This document shows, in pieces, positions 36,093-62,307 of a DNA stretch of 64,000 nucleotides. The DNA comes from Bacteroidota bacterium (lineage in GTDB: Bacteria > Bacteroidota > Bacteroidia > Palsa-965), in the NCBI GenBank assembly GCA_020402865.1, contig JADBYT010000033.1, positions 1-64,000 on the forward strand, given 5' to 3'. Each line of letters starts with the position of its first letter. Position 1 is the stretch's first letter. A program made the position numbers and the translations under genes. The notes below the pieces were generated by a model that made no database searches, was not told where the DNA came from, and saw nothing but the letters and a program-made list of their open reading frames with translations.

Positions 36093-36119
36093 GCTCAGTA
36101 TATACAGTCTATTTCATTC

Positions 36120-36151
36120 AAACACCTCTGCAAAAATTTGCAGAGGTGTTT
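36120..36151. terminator. Perfect hairpin between the PhoX-like and peroxidase genes
   Basis: Arms aaacacctctgcaaa (36120-36134) and tttgcagaggtgttt (36137-36151) are perfectly complementary with a two-base loop. It lies 27 bases after the stop of the PhoX-like gene. Confidence 0.75.
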
Positions 36152-36185
36152 GGTATTGATACCGGTAATTAATCTTTTTTGTCCG

Positions 36186-51118: not shown

Positions 51119-52201
51119 CTAGAACTCGTCGAAGTTCACCACCACATTGTCAGACACCGGATGTGCCTGACAGGTGAGGATGTAACCCTTAGCCACTTCG
51201 TCATCGGTAAGCGCAAAGTTCTGATCCATGCGCACAGTGCCTTCGGTTACTTTGGCGCGGCAGGTGCAGCACACACCGCCTTTGCAGGCAAACGGCACAT
51301 CCATGCCCGCATCGTAAGCCACATCGAGAATGGTGGCGCCGTTTTGGGCAATATCAAACTGCATTTCTTCGCCATCGAGAATTACAGTGACTTTGCTGGT
51401 GCCGGCAGCTGATGCGGTGGCGGCTTTGCTTTCGGCAGCCTGCACGGCTTCAGCTACTGCCTGAAAATATTCAATATGAATTAGCTTGGTATCCACACGA
51501 AGTTGTGTAAGCACCTGCTTCACATTTTCCATCATGGGGCCGGGGCCGCAAATGAAGTATTCATTGTTACCGTTCAGGCCCACATGGTTTTCGATCAGCG
51601 CTTTTACTTTTACCTCGGTAAGCATGCCGGTGTAAAGTTCGGCTGTACCAGCTGCAGGATTTTCGAGCACGTGAAACACGCTGAAACGGCTGCCATGCTG
51701 TGCGGCCAGCGCATCAAGCTGTGCTTTAAAAATTACCGACTGCTCATCGCGGTTGCCATAGAAAAGTGTAATCCGGCTTTTGGGCTCGCTGTGCAGCACG
51801 GTTTTGAGAATGGAAAGCATAGGTGTAATGCCGCTGCCGCCTGCAAAAAGCACATAATGCTTCTCGTTTCCGGCATCCATTGCCGACCAGAAATTGCCCA
51901 TCGGTGTCATTACGTCCAACTTATCACCCGCTTTCAACGAATCGTTGAGCCAGGTTGACGCACGGCCGCCCTCCACTTTTTTTACCGCAATACGCACTTC
52001 CGGATCAGCCACCGGACTGCTGCAAAGCGAGTATGAACGACGAAGTTCTTCGCCGCCCACCTGCAGTTTCAACGTCAGGTATTGCCCCTGAATGTAGGTA
52101 AACTCCTGCTTTGCCGCTTCCGGAATGTCGAAAACGATTGATACACAGTCGGCGGTTTCGCGGGTGATCTCTTTTACGCTGAGCGAATGAAAACGAGCCA
52201 T
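51119..52201 (-). CDS. paaE: 1,2-phenylacetyl-CoA epoxidase reductase subunit
   Basis: 360 residues. It passes electrons from NADPH through FAD and a 2Fe-2S cluster to the PaaABC(D) oxygenase. Ferredoxin-reductase-like FAD domain: GQYLTLKLQVGGEELRRSYS (about residues 38-57). NAD-binding: YVLFAGGSGITPMLSILK and NEYFICGPGPMMENVKQVL. C-terminal plant-type ferredoxin from about residue 270 with cluster cysteines in PFACKGGVCCTCRAKV and the last one in YILTCQAHP. In many bacteria paaE closes a paaABCDE operon. Here it is divergent from paaA. Confidence 0.93.
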   Translation of the reverse strand: MARFHSLSVKEITRETADCVSIVFDIPEAAKQEFTYIQGQYLTLKLQVGGEELRRSYSLCSSPVADPEVRIAVKKVEGGRASTWLNDSLKAGDKLDVMTPMGNFWSAMDAGNEKHYVLFAGGSGITPMLSILKTVLHSEPKSRITLFYGNRDEQSVIFKAQLDALAAQHGSRFSVFHVLENPAAGTAELYTGMLTEVKVKALIENHVGLNGNNEYFICGPGPMMENVKQVLTQLRVDTKLIHIEYFQAVAEAVQAAESKAATASAAGTSKVTVILDGEEMQFDIAQNGATILDVAYDAGMDVPFACKGGVCCTCRAKVTEGTVRMDQNFALTDDEVAKGYILTCQAHPVSDNVVVNFDEF

Positions 52202-52232
52202 ATTTTTTTGGTCAAAATTGGAAAACGGAGCG

Positions 52233-52263
52233 CAAAAATAGGATTATCTGCCCGTTCTGCCAA
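52233..52263 (-). promoter_or_regulatory. Promoter of paaE
   Basis: TTG (52263-52261), 20 bases, then TATTTTTG (52240-52233) on the minus strand. The leader to the ATG at 52201 is about 27 bases. Confidence 0.62.
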
Positions 52264-52610
52264 TTAAGGTTTTTCCCGCACCGACTTTATCCACATCCTC
52301 AGCCCCCGAAAACAGCATCAGCCCGCAAACGCACAGATTGCACTGAGCCAGAACAGCATTGCAAATTGAGTGGTATTTATCAGCCACTATGTTTAAGACG
52401 GGCAGGTACCATTTATAAATTTCTTCCACAAATCTTCAATTCCCTTTTGTACACGAACAATATGCACGCAGGGCGTGTTCAGGCTGATGAAAATCAGTTT
52501 CAAATTTAATTCTGCATGAAATACACACCGGGTGCACAGGTTGAGTGCGGGCACTTCCGCCGTTACGAAAAAGGCATGATAATCGTCAGCACAGGCCCAA
52601 AACCTTTCTG

Positions 52611-52618
52611 TATATTTG
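52611..52618 (+). promoter_or_regulatory. Bacteroidota -7 box of paaABCD
   Basis: TATATTTG lies 25 bases before the ATG at 52644. No good TTG is at the expected distance, which suggests that an activator may help. Confidence 0.5.
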
Positions 52619-52643
52619 TGCATCACAAACTTTTGTAAGCCGC

Positions 52644-53594
52644 ATGGAAAACACCATTCAACTCGAAGAATTATTTGACGCGAAACTCGAACGTGGCGAA
52701 TTCATCGAGCCGAAAGACTGGATGCCGGAGAAATACCGCAAAACCCTTATCCGCCAGATCTCGCAACATGCCCATTCTGAAGTAATTGGTATGCAGCCCG
52801 AGGGCAACTGGATTACCCGCGCCCCGAGTCTGCGCCGCAAAGCCGTACTGCTTGCTAAAGTGCAGGACGAGGGCGGTCATGGTCTTTACCTTTACAGCGC
52901 CTGCGAAACGTTAGGCATCAGCCGCGACGAAGTAATACAGCAACTGCAGTCAGGCAAAGCGAAATATTCAAGCATTTTCAATTACCCCACACTTACCTGG
53001 GCCGATATCGGCGCCATTGGCTGGTTAGTTGACGGCGCAGCCATTATGAATCAGGTAATGCTGCAACGTACATCCTACGGTCCATACTCGCGCGCTATGG
53101 TGCGTATATGCAAGGAAGAAAGTTTCCACCAGCGTCAGGGCTACGAAATTATCTGCGCGCTGGCAAAAGGCTCGCCCGAACAAAAGGCAATGGCGCAGGA
53201 TGCCATAAACCGCTGGTGGTGGCCCACGCTGATGATGTTTGGCCCGAAAGACGCCGAATCGTCAAACAGCGCCGAATCCATCAAATGGAAAATCAAGCGC
53301 GAAACAAACGACGAACTCCGTCAGAAATTTGTAGATCGCACGGTGCCGCAAGCCGAACACATTGGCCTCACCGTTCCTGACAAGGACCTGAAATGGAATG
53401 CCGAGCGGAACAGTTATGATTTCGGTGAAATTGACTGGGAAGAGTTCTGGAATGTGGTAAAAGGCAATGGTCCCTGCAACAAAATGCGTATCGAAAACCA
53501 TATCCGTGCCCACGAAGAAGGCAAATGGGTGCGTGAAGCTGCCGCAGCTTACGCCGCCAAAAAAGCCAAAGCCGCACAGGTGCAGGTAGCCTGA
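52644..53594 (+). CDS. paaA: 1,2-phenylacetyl-CoA epoxidase, catalytic subunit A
   Basis: 316 residues from the ATG at 52644 ([20 protein letters not shown]). The di-iron subunit that epoxidises the ring of phenylacetyl-CoA. Ferritin-like fold with metal-ligand regions [18 protein letters not shown] (about residues 72-89) and [13 protein letters not shown] (about 155-167). The substrate region [20 protein letters not shown] is highly typical of PaaA. The C-terminal [20 protein letters not shown] also matches. First gene of the plus-strand operon with paaB, paaC and paaD. Confidence 0.95.
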
Positions 53595-53632
53595 GTTATT
53601 CTCCCTTTTGTCCAAACCGATTCTACCATAAA

Positions 53633-53929
53633 ATGAGTTCAGTAACCGATAGTCAATGGCCTGTTTGGGAAGTATTCGTACAAACCAAATCAGGTATGCC
53701 GCACAAACACTGCGGCAGTGTACACGCACCCGATAAGGAAATTGCCCTTCAGAATGCGCGCGACGTTTACACCCGCCGCAGCGAAGGCACAAACATCTGG
53801 GTTGTTCCGGCCAACGCCATCACGGCATCCAGCCCGGAAGATATTGGCCCGTTCTTCGACCCTTCGAACGACAAGCCGTATCGTCACCCCACGTTTTACG
53901 AAATTCCCGAAGGCGTTAAATACATGTAA
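53633..53929 (+). CDS. paaB: 1,2-phenylacetyl-CoA epoxidase, subunit B
   Basis: 98 residues. WPVWEVFVQTKSGMPHKHCG, SVHAPDKEIALQNARDVYTR and SEGTNIWVVPANAI are standard PaaB motifs. This small subunit bridges the PaaAC heterodimers and is needed for activity. It starts 38 bp after paaA and ends eight bases before paaC. Confidence 0.95.
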   Translation: MSSVTDSQWPVWEVFVQTKSGMPHKHCGSVHAPDKEIALQNARDVYTRRSEGTNIWVVPANAITASSPEDIGPFFDPSNDKPYRHPTFYEIPEGVKYM

Positions 53930-53937
53930 TTCCCGCC

Positions 53938-54705
53938 ATGAGCGAAACCAATAAACAACAGGCGTTGTTCGAAATTCTGCTTCGCCTTGGCGATAACAGC
54001 CTTGTAATCGGGCACCGGCTTTCCGAATGGTGCAGCAAAGGCCCCATTCTGGAAGAAGATCTGGCACTGGCCAATATTGCACTCGATTGCATTGGTCAGG
54101 CACGCCTGCTGCTTACGTATGCCGGCGAAACAGAAGGCAAAGGCCGGAGCGAAGATGATCTCGCTTATGGCCGCCTCTCGGCCGATTACCGCAATGCCCT
54201 GCTTGCAGAACAGCCTAACGGCGATTTCGGAGTGACCATTGCCCGCCAGCTTTACTACACGGTATTTGCCGATCTGTGCTACAGCGCCCTTCGCCAAAGT
54301 ACCGATGCACAGCTTGCTGGCATTGCCGCTAAAGCACACAAGGAAATTCAATACCACCTGCGCCACTGCACGGAATGGACACTTCGCCTCGGCGATGGTA
54401 CCGAAGAAAGCCACCGCCGCATGCAAAAAGGCATCGACGAGCTTTGGATGTACACCGGCGATTTATTTGCCTCCACCGAAGCCGATGCCCAACTCGTTGC
54501 CGCAGGCATTATTCCCGACATTGCCTCACTTCACGGGCCGTGGAAAAAGCAGCTCGAAAGCATACTCAGCCAGGCCACACTTACACTTCCGCCAGACAGC
54601 TGGATGCAAAAAGGCAGCCGTGAGGGCGTGCATACCGAAGCCCTGAGCTACCTGCTGGGCGAAATGCAAACACTTACCCGCGCCTATCCCGGTGTGAACT
54701 GGTAA
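53938..54705 (+). CDS. paaC: 1,2-phenylacetyl-CoA epoxidase, structural subunit C
   Basis: 255 residues. A ferritin-like partner of PaaA without the catalytic iron site. Motifs: LLRLGDNSLVIGHRLSEWCS-like N-terminus, EEDLALANIALDCIGQARLL, KEIQYHLRHCTEWTLRLGDG and ESHRRMQKGIDELWMYTGDL. Length matches the family (about 250). Third gene of the operon. Confidence 0.94.
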   Translation: MSETNKQQALFEILLRLGDNSLVIGHRLSEWCSKGPILEEDLALANIALDCIGQARLLLTYAGETEGKGRSEDDLAYGRLSADYRNALLAEQPNGDFGVTIARQLYYTVFADLCYSALRQSTDAQLAGIAAKAHKEIQYHLRHCTEWTLRLGDGTEESHRRMQKGIDELWMYTGDLFASTEADAQLVAAGIIPDIASLHGPWKKQLESILSQATLTLPPDSWMQKGSREGVHTEALSYLLGEMQTLTRAYPGVNW

Positions 54706-54748
54706 CAGCCCCCGCCGGCGAAGCGATTGAATGAATAACTGAAAACGA

Positions 54749-55255
54749 ATGCAGCCGGAACAATCCACTCTTGCAGAAACTGCCGCCGTGTGGAATCTCC
54801 TGCGCCGCGTACCCGATCCTGAAATACCCGTGCTGAACGTGGTGGAAATGGGTATTGTACGCAGCGTGGAAGTGAAAGACAACAACGTGTTTGTGGGCAT
54901 TACACCCACCTACAGCGGCTGTCCGGCCATGGATGTAATTGGCGACGAAATAAAACGCAGCCTTACACAGAACGGCTTTGACCAGGTAAGCGTGAAATAC
55001 ATGCTGAGCCCGGCCTGGACTACCGACTGGCTTACCGACGAGGCCCGCGAAAAATTACGTCAATACGGCATTGCACCGCCCGAACACAGCACAGCCGAAA
55101 AAGCCGCATTACACGGCGCCGGCAAAACAGTGCATTGTCCGCGCTGTAAATCGGCACACACCCACATGATCAGCAATTTCGGCTCCACAGCCTGCAAAGC
55201 CCTCTGGCAATGCGACGATTGTAAGGAGCCGTTTGACTATTTCAAGTGCATCTGA
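54749..55255 (+). CDS. paaD: Phenylacetate-CoA oxygenase accessory protein PaaD (PaaJ)
   Basis: 168 residues. N-terminal MIP18/DUF59 domain with DPEIPVLNVVEMGIVRSVEV and TPTYSGCPAMDVIGDEIK (about residues 23-70), then a C-terminal zinc-ribbon-like part with HCPRCKSAHTHM and WQCDDCKEPFDYFKCI. It is thought to help iron-sulfur or metal-centre assembly of the epoxidase. Last gene of the operon, followed directly by a terminator. Confidence 0.93.
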   Translation: MQPEQSTLAETAAVWNLLRRVPDPEIPVLNVVEMGIVRSVEVKDNNVFVGITPTYSGCPAMDVIGDEIKRSLTQNGFDQVSVKYMLSPAWTTDWLTDEAREKLRQYGIAPPEHSTAEKAALHGAGKTVHCPRCKSAHTHMISNFGSTACKALWQCDDCKEPFDYFKCI

Positions 55256-55290
55256 AAAAAGAGACCGGTAATTGCCGGTCTTTTTTTTTG
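55256..55290 (+). terminator. Terminator of the paaABCD operon
   Basis: Arms agaccgg (55262-55268) and ccggtct (55274-55280), with an A-run before and nine T after. It follows the paaD stop directly. Confidence 0.88.
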
Positions 55291-55303: not shown

Positions 55304-55331
55304 ATTATTTAGAACATTTGTTCTAAATAAT
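55304..55331. promoter_or_regulatory. 28-bp perfect palindrome overlapping a -33 element (operator)
   Basis: Arms of 13 bp (55304-55316 and 55319-55331) with a two-base centre; core AGAACATTTGTTCT. The TTTG at its centre (55317-55320) is the -33 box of the following promoter. It contains GAAC-N4-GTTC, the form of Gram-positive LexA boxes, but could equally serve a nearby XRE-like regulator. Confidence 0.7.
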
Positions 55332-55349
55332 AAAAAAACACTAACTTTG
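55317..55349 (+). promoter_or_regulatory. Promoter of the 62-residue membrane protein gene
   Basis: TTTG (55317-55320), 21 bases, TAACTTTG (55342-55349). About 16-20 bases remain to the ATG at 55370. Confidence 0.68.
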
Positions 55350-55369
55350 TTTCATAGAACAACCACTTC

Positions 55370-55558
55370 ATGCCTGTACTTGGATTTTTTGGTGCCTTCT
55401 TTTTTCTGGTGCCGCTCACCGCCGCCTTTTTAGCCAAACGCCTTGGACGCTCTTTTGCCGTTTGGTTTGGGATAGGTTGTGTATTGCCGTTTATCGCCGT
55501 ATTTATTCTGCTTATGCTGCCTGAGAAAAAAGGACAGCCTGCTGAAAGTCATGCATAA
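55370..55558 (+). CDS. Small two-span membrane protein (62 residues)
   Basis: MPVLGFFGAFFFLVPLTAAF then a short basic loop (LAKRLGRSF) and a second hydrophobic helix (GIGCVLPFIAVFILLML), ending PEKKGQPAESHA. It has its own strong promoter blocked by the 28-bp palindrome and is closed by a terminator, so it forms a tightly regulated single-gene unit. No family recognised. Candidate roles are a stress-induced membrane or division regulator, or phage-superinfection-type small protein. All inference. Confidence 0.7.
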   Translation: MPVLGFFGAFFFLVPLTAAFLAKRLGRSFAVWFGIGCVLPFIAVFILLMLPEKKGQPAESHA

Positions 55559-55592
55559 AAAATCCCGTCTGCGCTAACAGACGGGATTTTTT
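55557..55592. terminator. Bidirectional terminator
   Basis: Arms aaaaaatcccgtctg (55557-55571) and cagacgggatttttt (55578-55592), six-base loop. It serves the 62-residue membrane protein gene and the converging XRE-like gene. Confidence 0.9.
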
Positions 55593-55608
55593 ATGTGAAG
55601 AAACACCG

Positions 55609-56019
55609 TTACTTGCCTTTTTTGCTGGGGGCGGGGGCAGGAACAGCAGGATCTGCGTCTGATCTTTCTTTCAGCAGTTTATGAATCTCTTTCAGATACG
55701 CGTTTTCGCTGCGCAGAATTTCGAGCTCTTTCTTAGCCGCATCGAGTTCGCGCTGAAGCTCCATGGCAGTCATTACCTGAGCTTTACCATAAGCAGCTTT
55801 GTCTTCATGCACCACAAGTGCCGAAGAAGAATAATATTGAAAGAAATCGTAATTGAGGGTACGCGAAATTTCGCGGAGAAGCTCGGTATCAATTGACTTA
55901 CGCTTGAAAATACCATAGATATTTTGCGGTGAAGTGCTGATACGACGGGCAAACTCGCTTTTCGTCATCCCCAATTCCTCAAGATGCTGGCGAATAATTT
56001 TTCCGATGTGTAATGCCAT
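55609..56019 (-). CDS. XRE-like helix-turn-helix protein with coiled coil
   Basis: 136 residues. Residues 1-60 (MALHIGKIIRQHLEELGMTK, SEFARRISTSPQNIYGIFKR) are a Cro/C1-type helix-turn-helix. Residues about 85-120 form a leucine-rich coiled coil (LQRELDAAKKELEILRSENA, YLKEIHKLL), then a Pro/Ala/Lys tail. It is a paralogue of the next gene upstream (56137-56652) and converges on the palindrome-controlled membrane protein gene. It probably dimerises through the coiled coil and may bind the nearby inverted repeats. Confidence 0.82.
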   Translation of the reverse strand: MALHIGKIIRQHLEELGMTKSEFARRISTSPQNIYGIFKRKSIDTELLREISRTLNYDFFQYYSSSALVVHEDKAAYGKAQVMTAMELQRELDAAKKELEILRSENAYLKEIHKLLKERSDADPAVPAPAPSKKGK

Positions 56020-56136: not shown

Positions 56137-56652
56137 TTATTTGCGTTTGAGCGAACTGCCAGCGGCAGCTTTAGTGGTTTTAGGTTGTTTCTTTGTGTTC
56201 GCTTTGGTGGTTTTAGTGTTTTTTTGTGATACCTGCTTCTGGGACGACTTTTTAGTATCTGACGTTTTTGCCGGTTGTTCAGGCAATTCGAAAGGCAGAC
56301 CTTCGGTTCGACCACGAAGCAGCCTTACTAACTCTTTGAGATATCGGTTTTCCTGCGCAAACAATTCGGTGTCTCGTTTTACCTGAGCCAGTTCCTTGTT
56401 CAGTTCCGAAGCATTCTTGTACGACATTGAATCGTCGTTCAGATAGGCCCCGCCGGAAGTAGTGTAATGCTGAAAAAAATCGTAATTCAATACACGCGAA
56501 ATTTCCCAGAGTAAATCGGTATCTATTGATTCGCGTTTGAAAATGCTGTACACATTTTGCGGTGTAGAGTTGATCCGGCGGGCAAATTCGCTCTTGTTCA
56601 TGCCCGCCTGCTCGATGCGTTTGCGGATTAATTTTCCGATGTGTAGTGCCAT
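56137..56652 (-). CDS. XRE-like helix-turn-helix protein with coiled coil and Lys-rich tail
   Basis: 171 residues from the ATG at 56652. The first 65 residues (MALHIGKLIRKRIEQAGMNK, SEFARRINSTPQNVYSIFKR) closely match the downstream paralogue. The coiled coil follows (NKELAQVKRDTELFAQENRY). The last 45 residues are rich in K, T, Q and A (KKSSQKQVSQKNTKTTKANT), like histone-H1-type tails that bind DNA nonspecifically. The tail is absent from the paralogue. The gene is preceded by an AGAA-N6-TTCT inverted repeat (56676-56689). Confidence 0.82.
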   Translation of the reverse strand: MALHIGKLIRKRIEQAGMNKSEFARRINSTPQNVYSIFKRESIDTDLLWEISRVLNYDFFQHYTTSGGAYLNDDSMSYKNASELNKELAQVKRDTELFAQENRYLKELVRLLRGRTEGLPFELPEQPAKTSDTKKSSQKQVSQKNTKTTKANTKKQPKTTKAAAGSSLKRK

Positions 56653-56675
56653 GCCCAAATCTCAACATTTGCTTG

Positions 56676-57264: not shown

Positions 57265-58890
57265 TTATCCAAGAAAGGGATAACGATAATCAACAGGAGG
57301 CACAAAGGTTTCTTTAATGGTACGGGGTGATACCCAGCGCAGCAGGTTTATCATTGCTCCTGCCTTGTCGTTTGTTCCCGAACCGCGGGCGCCGCCAAAA
57401 GGCTGTTGCCCCACTACTGCTCCCGTAGGCTTATCATTGATGTAGAAATTACCCGCCGCATGTTCGAGCGTTTTGGTGGCCAGTTCAATGGCATAACGAT
57501 CCTGCGCAATAATTGAACCGGTGAGCGCATAAATTGATGTTTTATCCACCAGTTTAAGCGTTTCTTCGAATTTGTGCTCATCATACACATAAATGGTAAG
57601 CACCGGTCCGAAAAGCTCCTCGCACATGGTTACGTACATCGGATCATCCACACGGAGTACGGTGGGCGCAATGTACCAGCCTTTTGATTTATCGTAAGTG
57701 CCGCCAGCCACAATTTCCACGTTCGGATCGTTCTTGGCTGCATCAATAAACGATGCCAGCTTATCGAACGATTTCTCGTCGATTACGGCATTGATGAAAT
57801 TTGAGAAATCTTCGGTGGGGCCCATCTTGAACGAAGCAAGATCGCGCTGCAAACCGGCTTTCACTTCGTCCCAGATATTTGACGGAATGTAGGCGCGGGA
57901 AGCTGCAGAACATTTTTGCCCCTGATATTCAAAAGCACCGCGTGAAAGTGCGGTGATTACTGCAGGCGCTTCGGCCGAACGATGCACCATTACAAAATCC
58001 TTACCGCCGGTTTCGCCCACAATGCGCGGGTACGATTTATAGCGGTGTATGTTTTGACCAATGGTTTTCCAGATGTCCTGAAACACACCCGTAGAACCGG
58101 TGAAGTGAATGCCGGCAAAATCGGGGTGTGCAAAAATAACATCCGCCGCATCCGGGCCTGAAGGATACACCAGATTGATTACACCGGCCGGCACGCCCGC
58201 GCGGATGAAAATTTCCATAAGCACATTGGCGGCATACACCTGTGTGTTGCTGGGCTTCCACACCACTACATTACCCATCAGGGCACATGAGCTGGGCAGG
58301 TTGCCGGCAATGGCGGTGAAGTTAAACGGTGTAAGCGCATAAATAAATCCTTCGAGCGGACGCCATTCCATGCGGTTCCACATGCCGGGCGCCGAGTGGG
58401 GCTGCTGGCGGTAAATCTCGGTCATAAACTGCACGTTGAAGCGCAGGAAGTCGATGATTTCGCAGGCAGAGTCGATTTCGGCCTGGAAAGCGTTTTTCGA
58501 CTGGCCGAGCATGGTGGCGGCATTGAGTTTGGCGCGGTACGGGCCGGCAATCAGATCGGCAGCTTTCAGGAAAATGCTGGCGCGGTGTTCCCAGCTCAGG
58601 TTCACCCATTTTTCGCGTGCGGCAAGTGCCGCATCAATTGCCTGCTGCACATGCGTTTTATCGCTCTTGTGAAAATGCCCGAGTGTATGCTTGTGATCGT
58701 GCGGCGGGGCAAGACGGCTGAGATTGCCGCTGCGCACTTCATGTCCGCCAATGTACATGGGAATATCCAGTTCCTGACTGCGCAGGGTAGCCAGCATTTG
58801 CTGCAATTCGGCACGTTCGGCGCTGCCGGGGGCATAACTTTTCACCGGTTCGTTTACCGGCTGAGGTACATTAAAAAATCCTGTTGCCAT
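57265..58890 (-). CDS. pruA: L-glutamate gamma-semialdehyde dehydrogenase
   Basis: 541 residues. It oxidises glutamate semialdehyde (from proline) to glutamate with NAD+. The aldehyde dehydrogenase motifs are FNFTAIAGNLPSSCALMGNV, VVWKPSNTQVYAANV, FTGSTGVFQDIWKTIG, the glutamate in IVGETGGKDFVMVH and the catalytic cysteine in FEYQGQKCSAASRAYIP. FNDKPTGAVVGQQPFGGARG-type residues near the end are also typical. It is a single-domain form without PutA. Third gene of pyrE-SRPBCC-pruA. The start is preceded by a CA-rich leader. Confidence 0.94.
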   Translation of the reverse strand: MATGFFNVPQPVNEPVKSYAPGSAERAELQQMLATLRSQELDIPMYIGGHEVRSGNLSRLAPPHDHKHTLGHFHKSDKTHVQQAIDAALAAREKWVNLSWEHRASIFLKAADLIAGPYRAKLNAATMLGQSKNAFQAEIDSACEIIDFLRFNVQFMTEIYRQQPHSAPGMWNRMEWRPLEGFIYALTPFNFTAIAGNLPSSCALMGNVVVWKPSNTQVYAANVLMEIFIRAGVPAGVINLVYPSGPDAADVIFAHPDFAGIHFTGSTGVFQDIWKTIGQNIHRYKSYPRIVGETGGKDFVMVHRSAEAPAVITALSRGAFEYQGQKCSAASRAYIPSNIWDEVKAGLQRDLASFKMGPTEDFSNFINAVIDEKSFDKLASFIDAAKNDPNVEIVAGGTYDKSKGWYIAPTVLRVDDPMYVTMCEELFGPVLTIYVYDEHKFEETLKLVDKTSIYALTGSIIAQDRYAIELATKTLEHAAGNFYINDKPTGAVVGQQPFGGARGSGTNDKAGAMINLLRWVSPRTIKETFVPPVDYRYPFLG

Positions 58891-58922
58891 GTGTGGTGTG
58901 TGAATGTGTGTGAAGCAATCGG

Positions 58923-59327
58923 TTAAGGCAGATCTTTCAGCTTACCGATGAGCATATTGAAAAAGTTGCGCAGCGGCGGCTCCACCATGGGGCGCAGAAA
59001 CGGATTAATATCGGCCTGAAACAAAAGCTTGCCGGTACTTCCGCTGCCCGTGGCTGCCGCAGCAATGTGAATATCGAGTGTAAAGGAGAATGGGATTTTA
59101 CCTCCGTCGGAAACCAGATTAATGAGGCTGTGCGGTGTGCTCGAAGCAATGCGCATACCCACCGTGGCCATACCGCCCAAAGTAAACGAACAGGTTTCGT
59201 TGGTTGATTTCCAGTTGGTAACCTGCGACGGCATCAGCTTTTCGAGGTTATTGAGATTGGTGAGGAAGGCAAATACTTCTTCCTGCGACTTTGCTGTGGT
59301 AACGGTTTCGGTTTCGATGCGCGTCAT
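58923..59327 (-). CDS. SRPBCC/START-like small protein
   Basis: 134 residues. MTRIETETVTTAKSQEEVFA and FLTNLNNLEKLMPSQVTNWK fit the beginning of the polyketide-cyclase/START-like helix-grip fold. It ends with PFLRPMVEPPLRNFFNMLIG, as in Bacteroidota relatives found beside pyrE. It may bind a hydrophobic ligand. Function unknown. It lies 15 bp after pyrE and 32 bp before pruA, so it is part of that operon. Confidence 0.82.
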   Translation of the reverse strand: MTRIETETVTTAKSQEEVFAFLTNLNNLEKLMPSQVTNWKSTNETCSFTLGGMATVGMRIASSTPHSLINLVSDGGKIPFSFTLDIHIAAAATGSGSTGKLLFQADINPFLRPMVEPPLRNFFNMLIGKLKDLP

Positions 59328-59342
59328 AAAGCGGTATATGTA

Positions 59343-59984
59343 TTATACTCCCCACCCCGAGGGATTTTTCCTCCAGGCTTCGAGTGTTTCGAGATCTTGT
59401 TCGGTAATATAATTATCGTGTAATGCCTGTCGGATGAGCGAAGGGTAATTGCTCAGCGTAATGAGTTCGACACCTGCTGCAGCAAAATTCTTTTCGGCAT
59501 CCGGAAACCCGTAGGTGAAAATAGCCGCCATGCCTTTTACTTCGCAGCCTGCATCGCGAAGGGCTTCTACAGCTTTAAGGCTGCTGCCGCCAGTAGAAAT
59601 CAGGTCTTCAATAACCACCACCGATTGTCCGGAGGCAATTTCGCCCTCAATCATGTTGCCCAGTCCGTGCTTTTTGGGCTCAGGACGCACATATACAAAA
59701 GGCAGCCCCATTTCTTCGGCCACCAGTGCACCCTGTGCAATGGCTCCGGTGGCAACACCGGCAATTACATCGGGACGGGGAAAATGCGCGTGGATAAGCT
59801 GAACAAACTGCTGACGTATAAAAGTACGTACTTTGGGGTACGAGAGCGTTTTACGGTTATCGCAGTAAATAGGCGATTTCCAGCCAGAGGCCCAGGTAAA
59901 GGGTTGTGCAGGCTGAAGCTTAATTGCTTTAATTTGTAGGAGAAATTCCGCAACTTTAGAAGCGGTCTCGGTGTTCGTGACCAT
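59343..59984 (-). CDS. pyrE: Orotate phosphoribosyltransferase
   Basis: 213 residues from the ATG at 59984 (MVTNTETASKVAEFLLQIKA). A longer frame exists but would overlap the -7 box. It joins orotate to PRPP to give OMP in pyrimidine synthesis. WASGWKSPIYCDNRKTLSYP is typical, as is the PRPP loop VVVIEDLISTGGSSLKAVEA (about residues 118-137). First gene of the operon and divergent from the Nudix gene, whose start lies seven bases away. Confidence 0.93.
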   Translation of the reverse strand: MVTNTETASKVAEFLLQIKAIKLQPAQPFTWASGWKSPIYCDNRKTLSYPKVRTFIRQQFVQLIHAHFPRPDVIAGVATGAIAQGALVAEEMGLPFVYVRPEPKKHGLGNMIEGEIASGQSVVVIEDLISTGGSSLKAVEALRDAGCEVKGMAAIFTYGFPDAEKNFAAAGVELITLSNYPSLIRQALHDNYITEQDLETLEAWRKNPSGWGV

Positions 59985-59988
59985 GCTG

Positions 59989-59996
59989 CAAATGTA
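59989..59996 (-). promoter_or_regulatory. Bacteroidota -7 box of pyrE
   Basis: TACATTTG on the minus strand ends four bases before the pyrE ATG. It lies inside the start region of the divergent Nudix gene. A leaderless transcript is predicted. Confidence 0.52.
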
Positions 59997-60600
59997 TAAA
60001 GTTTTCATCAACAACCGTCCGCTCATACTTGCTCAGGCGCCCTTTGTTGGCAGCTACAAACAAGGCATGCTTTACATACGCTATGATGCGCCGGCGCTTT
60101 TACGTGAAATCATCCTTCAGGCCCACGCATCGGGCGAAAATTTTCCGGAGGTACTGCTTGTTCACGGAAATGTGAATACGCTGCTTGCCGATTTTGAAAA
60201 CTCCTGTACAGTTATTGAAGCAGCAGGTGGCAGGGTGTTGAATAAAAAAGGCCACACGCTGATGATTTTTCGCAGCGGCAGGTGGGATCTGCCCAAAGGT
60301 AAAATAGACCCCGGCGAAACACCTGAACAGGCAGCCCTGCGCGAAGTGGAAGAAGAATGCGGTATTTCGGGACTGCAGATTGAAAAACAGCTTCAAACTA
60401 CCTGGCATACCTACATGCATGGCAACGAACCCATTATAAAAAAAACATACTGGTATCTGATGCATTGCACGGATACACGCAAACTCGTGCCGCAACTGGA
60501 GGAAGGAATTACGCAGGCCGAGTGGCTTGATGATGTAGGCCTTTATCAGGCCATGAAAAACACCTACCGTTCGGTGACCGAAATTATTGGTCAGCCCTGA
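59992..60600 (+). CDS. Nudix hydrolase
   Basis: 202 residues from the ATG at 59992 (MYKVFINNRPLILAQ); the ATG at 59983 is an alternative. An N-terminal domain of about 75 residues precedes the Nudix fold. The Nudix box is complete: GKIDPGETPEQAALREVEEE followed by CGI (G-x5-E-x7-REUxEExGU). It hydrolyses a nucleoside diphosphate derivative of unknown identity. This two-part form is common in Bacteroidota next to pyrE. Confidence 0.88.
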   Translation: MYKVFINNRPLILAQAPFVGSYKQGMLYIRYDAPALLREIILQAHASGENFPEVLLVHGNVNTLLADFENSCTVIEAAGGRVLNKKGHTLMIFRSGRWDLPKGKIDPGETPEQAALREVEEECGISGLQIEKQLQTTWHTYMHGNEPIIKKTYWYLMHCTDTRKLVPQLEEGITQAEWLDDVGLYQAMKNTYRSVTEIIGQP

Positions 60601-60663
60601 TGCCATTGAAACCCGCATGCCCTGCCCTGCGTTACAGTGACACTGCCTTAACCAACCCGCGCT

Positions 60664-62307
60664 ATGATTACACGCCCTGACCTGCATCAGGCTCTTTCGG
60701 CACTGCGAAGCCGGATTTTTTTCACCGCCTATCCTGAACATCCCGGCGCTTATGCCGAAACCGAAAAAAGTCTGGGGCTTGCCGCTTTCGAACAACATCT
60801 GAATAAACCGTTTGCAGATTTGCTTCAACCCGGCACACTGCAATGGGCGGGCGAAGAACGTTCGCCCTGGACCATGCAGCCACTAGGTATTACCTACCCG
60901 GTTTTTGATGCCGGGGCACTGTTGTTGCGCGCCCGAACGGCCCGGCACAGCCTGAGCGACCTTACGCCCGAAAAGCGGGCATCCATACTTATTGATGCAC
61001 TCGAACTTATGCGAGCCCGTTTTTTCGAACTGGCTTTTGCCACGCAGCACACTTCGGGCCAATCGTTTATGATGGCTTTTCAGGCTTCGGGCCCGCACAC
61101 TGCCGACCGCGCGCTGGAGGCACTGGCATCGGCTTACGAGGCTATTACTTACTTCCCGGCCAGTGTGTGGTGGGAAAAACCGTTGGGTAAAACCAGTGTA
61201 AAACTCGAAAAAACCTACAAAGCCGTGGGGCGAGGCATTGCGCTGAGCATAGGCTGCTCCACTTTTCCGACGTGGAATTCGCTGCCGGGCATTTTTGCCA
61301 ACCTCATGTGCGGCAACCCCGTTATCTGGAAACCACATCCGGGTGCTGTTTTGCCTGCGGCTATTGCGGCAAGCTGCATTCAGGACGCTTTTGCCGCCGC
61401 AGGTTCCGATGCGATGGCCTTGCAGCTTGCTCCCGATACCGCTGCCGAGCCGTTGGCTTTTTTACTGGCACAACATCCCCTTGTGCAGATAATCGACTAC
61501 ACCGGCGGCAGCAGTTTTGGACAAACGCTCGAAAGTTTGCCCGGCAAAACCGTGTTTACCGAAAAAGCCGGTGTAAACAGCGTGCTCATCGAATCAGTGA
61601 AAAACCTCGATGAGGTGCTTCAAAACCTTGCATTTTCAGTGTGCCTGTACTCCGGACAGATGTGTACGGCGCCGCAAAACTTCTTTGTTCCTGCTCAGGG
61701 TGTGTGGGATGGCGAAAAACACATTCCGGCCAGCGAGGTAGCCACACGCCTTGCCGACGCCATAAAAGCACTTACCGAAAATCCGAAAACCGGTGCCGGC
61801 ACCCTTGCCACGTTGCAAAACGAACGCACACTCCAACGTGTAGCCAATTCATCCAATCTCGGCGCCGAGGTGCTGCTTCCCTCCGCCTCCGTTGCCCAGC
61901 CCGATTTTCCGCAGGCACTCAGCATTTCGCCGGTGCTGTTGAAAACAACAGCTTCGGAAGAAGCGATATATGCTTCCGAACTGTTCGGGCCCATCAGCAT
62001 TGTGGTGGTAACTACCGATCGCGACGAAGCCCTGCAACTGATTACCCAGCTAGCCCGCAAGCAGGGTGCCATTACCTGTGCGCTTTATACTACCGATGCC
62101 GCCTTCGAGAAAAAAGCCCTTCTGCATCTCGAATCGGCTTTTGTACAGGTTTCGGTAAACCTCACCGGCCACATCTGGGTAAACCAGCACGCCGCTTTTT
62201 CCGACTTACACGTTACCGGCGGCAACCCTGCCGGAAACGCCACCTTCAGCAATCCTGATTTTGTAAACCGGCGCTTTGTGTGGCTTAGTCACCGCAAAGC
62301 CGTGTAA
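60664..62307 (+). CDS. paaN: Phenylacetic acid degradation protein PaaN (aldehyde dehydrogenase type)
   Basis: 547 residues. An aldehyde-dehydrogenase-superfamily protein of the PaaN type (about 550 residues, no hydratase domain, unlike PaaZ of E. coli). It is thought to oxidise the aldehyde formed on ring opening. Visible features: SIGCSTFPTWNSLPGIFANL, GNPVIWKPHPGAVLPAAIA, DYTGGSSFGQTLESL, the active-site region VCLYSGQMCTAPQNFFVP with its cysteine, and SELFGPISIVVVTT. The N-terminal 140 residues are family-specific. It lies about 5.4 kb from paaD but belongs to the same pathway. Confidence 0.88.
   Translation: MITRPDLHQALSALRSRIFFTAYPEHPGAYAETEKSLGLAAFEQHLNKPFADLLQPGTLQWAGEERSPWTMQPLGITYPVFDAGALLLRARTARHSLSDLTPEKRASILIDALELMRARFFELAFATQHTSGQSFMMAFQASGPHTADRALEALASAYEAITYFPASVWWEKPLGKTSVKLEKTYKAVGRGIALSIGCSTFPTWNSLPGIFANLMCGNPVIWKPHPGAVLPAAIAASCIQDAFAAAGSDAMALQLAPDTAAEPLAFLLAQHPLVQIIDYTGGSSFGQTLESLPGKTVFTEKAGVNSVLIESVKNLDEVLQNLAFSVCLYSGQMCTAPQNFFVPAQGVWDGEKHIPASEVATRLADAIKALTENPKTGAGTLATLQNERTLQRVANSSNLGAEVLLPSASVAQPDFPQALSISPVLLKTTASEEAIYASELFGPISIVVVTTDRDEALQLITQLARKQGAITCALYTTDAAFEKKALLHLESAFVQVSVNLTGHIWVNQHAAFSDLHVTGGNPAGNATFSNPDFVNRRFVWLSHRKAV

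Follow-up and report, generated by a model that had tools for sequence, protein, structure and literature searches.

A 28-bp palindrome on the -33 box of a small membrane protein gene is probably the operator of a Bacteroidota TetR-family regulator

TetR-family regulators whose genes lie less than 200 bp from a divergent enzyme gene have been surveyed in Streptomyces (PMC3511530), the SCO7222/SCO7223 monooxygenase locus being one example. In Bacteroidetes, the proven SOS boxes are CTAA-N5-TTAG or GGA-N5-TCC, and the non-canonical LexA that uses them is an S24 repressor controlling recA, umuDC and dinB (PMC8565304). The promoter consensus of Bacteroidota is TTTG/TAnnTTTG (PMC6847099).

In this study we focus on a palindrome found in a 64,000-nucleotide stretch of Bacteroidota DNA, hereafter the window, and on its counterpart between a tetR gene and a monooxygenase gene elsewhere in the same genome. 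Like the Streptomyces systems, the latter locus combines a divergent tetR/monooxygenase pair, a short intergenic region and palindromic operators, and by analogy repression and autoregulation would be expected here. It differs from them by its Bacteroidota motif, TTAGNACANNTGTNCTAA, by its tandem operators and by a further predicted operator, the palindrome of the window, at a small membrane protein gene to which it is not linked. With the non-canonical Bacteroidetes LexA the palindrome shares the phylum and the palindromic form of the operator, and with the Gram-positive DinR/LexA box it shares a GAAC-N4-GTTC string. The features of the window discussed below are as follows.

55264 to 55290, plus strand: terminator-like hairpin with a T-run, after paaA-D, separating the paa genes from the small gene (from the sequence)
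55304 to 55331, no strand: predicted operator, a 28-bp perfect palindrome with core TTAGAACATTTGTTCTAA at 55309 to 55326, matching the TetR motif
55317 to 55320, plus strand: -33 element TTTG at the palindrome centre (sequence and PMC6847099 consensus)
55342 to 55349, plus strand: -7 element TAACTTTG, 21 nt after TTTG (from the sequence)
55370 to 55558, plus strand: 62-codon ORF, the predicted target gene, encoding a small hydrophobic protein
55554 to 55595, plus strand: terminator-like 18-bp hairpin, 3' of the small ORF

The palindrome reads ATTATTTAGAACA-TT-TGTTCTAAATAAT, and the earlier note had described it exactly: two 100% complementary arms of 13 nt, 55304-55316 and 55319-55331, enclose a 2-nt centre. 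As that note also claimed, it lies on the -33 TTTG, which is held in its centre and forms, with the -7 element, a Bacteroidota promoter of the form TTTG-N21-TAACTTTG. The pattern TTTG-N19..22-TAHHTTTG has only four matches on both strands of the window, the promoter at 55317-55349 being one of them, and the 62-codon ORF starts 38 bp after the palindrome ends. Seven perfect inverted repeats with arms of at least 13 nt and loops of up to 8 nt are present in the window, including this one; the others mostly contain G+C and resemble terminator hairpins. The palindrome at 55304-55331 is more than a chance occurrence, and no T-run follows it on either strand. For the 20-bp core of the palindrome, every other match in the genome carries at least two mismatches. 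Elsewhere in the window, at 36119-36152, another perfect palindrome with 16-bp arms and a 2-nt centre, CAAACACCTCTGCAAAAATTTGCAGAGGTGTTTG, lies between two ORFs with no obvious T-run.

Pattern searches, on which all genome-wide statements rest, were run over the 4.89-Mb genome. The best other match to TTTAGAACANNTGTTCTAAA at up to 3 mismatches is TTTAGAACAAATGTACTAAT, on contig C12. Moreover, the motif TTAGNACANNTGTNCTAA, with 14 fixed bases, occurs without mismatch exactly twice in the 4.89 Mb, at the window site and on C12, and the reversed-pattern control gives no match. The exact C12 site is located 64 bp before a tetR gene, and a weaker third copy, CTGGAACATTTGTACTAA, is found 29 bp from it. 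Both lie in the short intergenic region between a gene for an FAD-dependent monooxygenase (PF01494; NCBIfam PRK06753 over cut-off) and the divergent regulator gene.

G000:C12:45444-46073: TetR-family regulator (PF00440 and PF13972), divergent from the monooxygenase gene

The genome encodes eight TetR_N proteins, and the motif is found upstream of the C12 one only. The window site, which matches all 14 fixed bases just as the cognate C12 site does, has the highest symmetry among the three genomic sites, and its centre falls exactly on the -33 box. We therefore consider it very likely that the palindrome is the operator, predicted from sequence, of the TetR protein encoded on C12.

Comparison with other genomes points to the same regulator. 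TetR homologues were collected by protein similarity, not by motif, from named genomes (Chitinophaga, Algoriphagus, Alkanindiges and others) and from relatives within the class; their identity to the C12 TetR is 24-40%. About 24 of the 40 homologues, from Chitinophaga and other Bacteroidota, match the motif at 12-14 of its 14 fixed positions no more than about 80 bp from the gene start; of 300 shuffles, at most 1 did as well. The motif is missing at about 15 of the 40. Its conservation thus extends to the upstream regions of tetR homologues in other genomes, and the 18-mer TTAGAACATTTGTTCTAA of the window is found unchanged upstream of the TetR homologues of G085 and of a Chitinophaga MAG (L067). 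In ten genomes with TetR homologues, the motif at up to one mismatch occurs 1-3 times each, nearly always at tetR. Tandem sites about 30 bp apart accompany a divergent FAD-monooxygenase/TetR arrangement in Chitinophaga arvensicola (L112), G012 (L083) and G197 (L085), and C. cymbidii (L063) has such a divergent pair with one site. Since this genome's own sites supplied the 14-base consensus, a cleaner test is given by a matrix built from 29 foreign sites and trained without this genome: the window site reaches 26.6 bits and the second-best position in the window 4.1, against a maximum of 20.3 bits in 5.1 Mb of simulated sequence. Furthermore, at L067 and L086 the right flank of the operator (TAATTTTG and TAACTTTG) reads as a -7 element, and in the window the TTTG reads as the -33 element; the operator would therefore overlap promoter elements each time. 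The palindromic form, the promoter overlap, the identity to the tetR/monooxygenase sites and the conservation in other genera are all read from the DNA itself.

Other matches seen in this comparison were set aside. Exact motif matches in relatives at L106, L108, L109 and L110 have no adjoining tetR, most lie inside ORFs, and they look like chance. G082 and G088 came from a promoter DNA search in relatives; the palindromes of G082 (L050) have a different spacing and precede another gene, and were judged unrelated. These two tight palindromes, TTATTTAGAACGGTTCTAAATAA and TTATTTAGAACCATTCTAAATAA (L050:1501-1600), stand upstream of a predicted lipoprotein; they share the half-site letters with a shorter centre and probably belong to another regulator. 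In Alkanindiges/Moraxellaceae (L071-L073, L076), a related palindrome, TTTAGAGTAATTGCTCTAAA, is present about 95 bp upstream of proteobacterial TetR homologues, and within the TetR subfamily the operator has apparently drifted.

The earlier note had interpreted the core as a LexA/DinR-type SOS box and the small protein as a possible inhibitor of division induced by DNA damage. The GAAC-N4-GTTC string is literally within the palindrome, and the product is predicted to be a small membrane protein, as this interpretation would have it. However, conservation covers the wider TTAGNACA..TGTNCTAA, the conserved bases reaching TTAG..CTAA, and both CTAA-N5-TTAG and GGA-N5-TCC (PMC8565304) are missing from the palindrome. 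A LexA repressor (PF01726 winged helix plus S24) is not among the S24 matches of the genome, which are two proteins, one UmuD-like and one of HTH_3-type, neither with the LexA winged helix. No exact GAAC-N4-GTTC occurs in the 300 bp upstream of recA or of either S24 gene. The sole near match in these regions has one mismatch and lies 115 bp ahead of the UmuD-like ORF, itself about 1 kb upstream of a gene for a UmuC-like polymerase. The HTH_3-S24 protein (L061:1117-1860, contig C15 of G000) matches the non-canonical Bacteroidetes LexA in architecture (PMC8565304), and no exact copy of the published SOS boxes was found in the 300 bp preceding its gene, recA or the UmuD-like gene; the lineage may use a diverged SOS box. 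Finally, the site is single-copy aside from the tetR locus, the tetR/FAD-monooxygenase intergenic region holding the only other strong site. A unit for SOS response, division arrest or phage defence is not supported. An SOS box with a damage-induced division inhibitor is thus highly improbable.

Control by another local regulator is also quite improbable. The adjacent genes at 55609-56019 and 56137-56658 (both minus strand) encode two Cro/CI-like HTH paralogues of a DNA-binding type (HTH_3), but no further copy of the motif (up to 2 mismatches) is present in the window, including the regions upstream of these HTH genes, and in other genomes the motif tracks TetR genes. The palindrome could in principle act as RNA, as a terminator or leader hairpin, and it would fold (-11.5 kcal/mol, z -7.4); yet the T-run is lacking on both strands, the palindrome is upstream of the transcription start predicted near 55355, and a hairpin would leave the identity to the tetR-upstream sites unexplained, which makes this exceedingly improbable. 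That TetR binds the site without usefully affecting the small gene would agree with a sole distal site that is not conserved before the orthologues in the genus; such a fortuitous site is unlikely, however, given that it is the most symmetric of the three and is centred on the -33 box. On the whole, the palindrome is almost certainly the predicted operator of a TetR regulator, not of LexA, and the protein an ordinary TetR-type repressor.

The mechanism that we infer for the TetR operator comprises TetR binding, repression and not activation, and an inducer. A TetR dimer would bind TTAGAACA-NN-TGTTCTAA, covering the -33 TTTG, and the bound regulator would keep the gene of the 62-codon membrane protein off by occluding its promoter. 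The earlier expectation that binding should block transcription is in line with a predicted protein-binding operator lying across the -33 box, and repression is likelier than activation because a TetR usually represses an enzyme gene that lies divergently within 200 bp of its own, as surveyed in Streptomyces (PMC3511530). A small-molecule inducer would act on the dimer and release both the promoter of the small gene and those of the monooxygenase and tetR genes; this inducer may be a compound on which the monooxygenase acts, aromatic or xenobiotic. The predicted transcription unit would be a single gene, since the terminator-like hairpin at 55554-55595 follows the ORF.

The small protein matches no Pfam or NCBIfam family over cut-off. 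Of its earlier description as a two-span membrane protein of 62 residues, the length is borne out by the 62 codons, and the two spans correspond to hydrophobic stretches recognised by eye. Across the family, two hydrophobic stretches flank a conserved GR motif, and the gene neighbourhoods vary. In the window, phenylacetate degradation genes flank it at 51119-55255 and 57265-62307, with paaE-like (minus strand) and paaABCD-like (plus strand) genes and two large aldehyde-dehydrogenase-like ORFs, and the two HTH paralogues lie between these stretches; names in this region were read from translations, except those of paaD and the HTH genes. Control of the paa genes through the palindrome was considered and rejected, no second copy of the motif being present in the paa cluster.

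Some observations run counter to the TetR operator. The regulator is encoded on a different contig, not adjacent to the window site; identity between the C12 TetR and its homologues is low, and a good third of these have no motif; there is one distal site only, so the regulon would be tiny; and the small gene is not under such an operator in relatives, so its control may be recent. Of the 11 other genomes from the genus or family, 8 encode homologues of the small protein, as does one genome of another family, and the palindrome is absent at the orthologues in relatives, an absence that at the reverse-strand loci (L021, L025-L028) is defined solely by exact-motif search. In G001, the small gene directly follows paaD, without terminator or palindrome. 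Neither a homologue of the C12 TetR (E <= 1e-15) nor an exact copy of the site was found in the 11 other genomes of the genus or family, and among the genomes searched there the two co-occur in this genome only, a point in favour of their pairing. The simplest reading would be that, in the group sampled, only this genome has the regulator module and that the small gene was captured there. Tentatively, the TetR/FAD-monooxygenase module could have taken over a resident small gene through a newly evolved perfect operator, and the small protein could act with the monooxygenase on the same, perhaps aromatic or xenobiotic, compound.

Our literature search found no description of the TTAGNACANNTGTNCTAA operator motif. 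The SOS story thus gives way to a concrete, testable regulator-operator pair, and TTAGNACANNTGTNCTAA is the predicted operator motif of a Bacteroidota TetR subfamily. With the TTTG inside the operator, the locus illustrates how a single palindrome would put a Bacteroidota promoter under TetR control.
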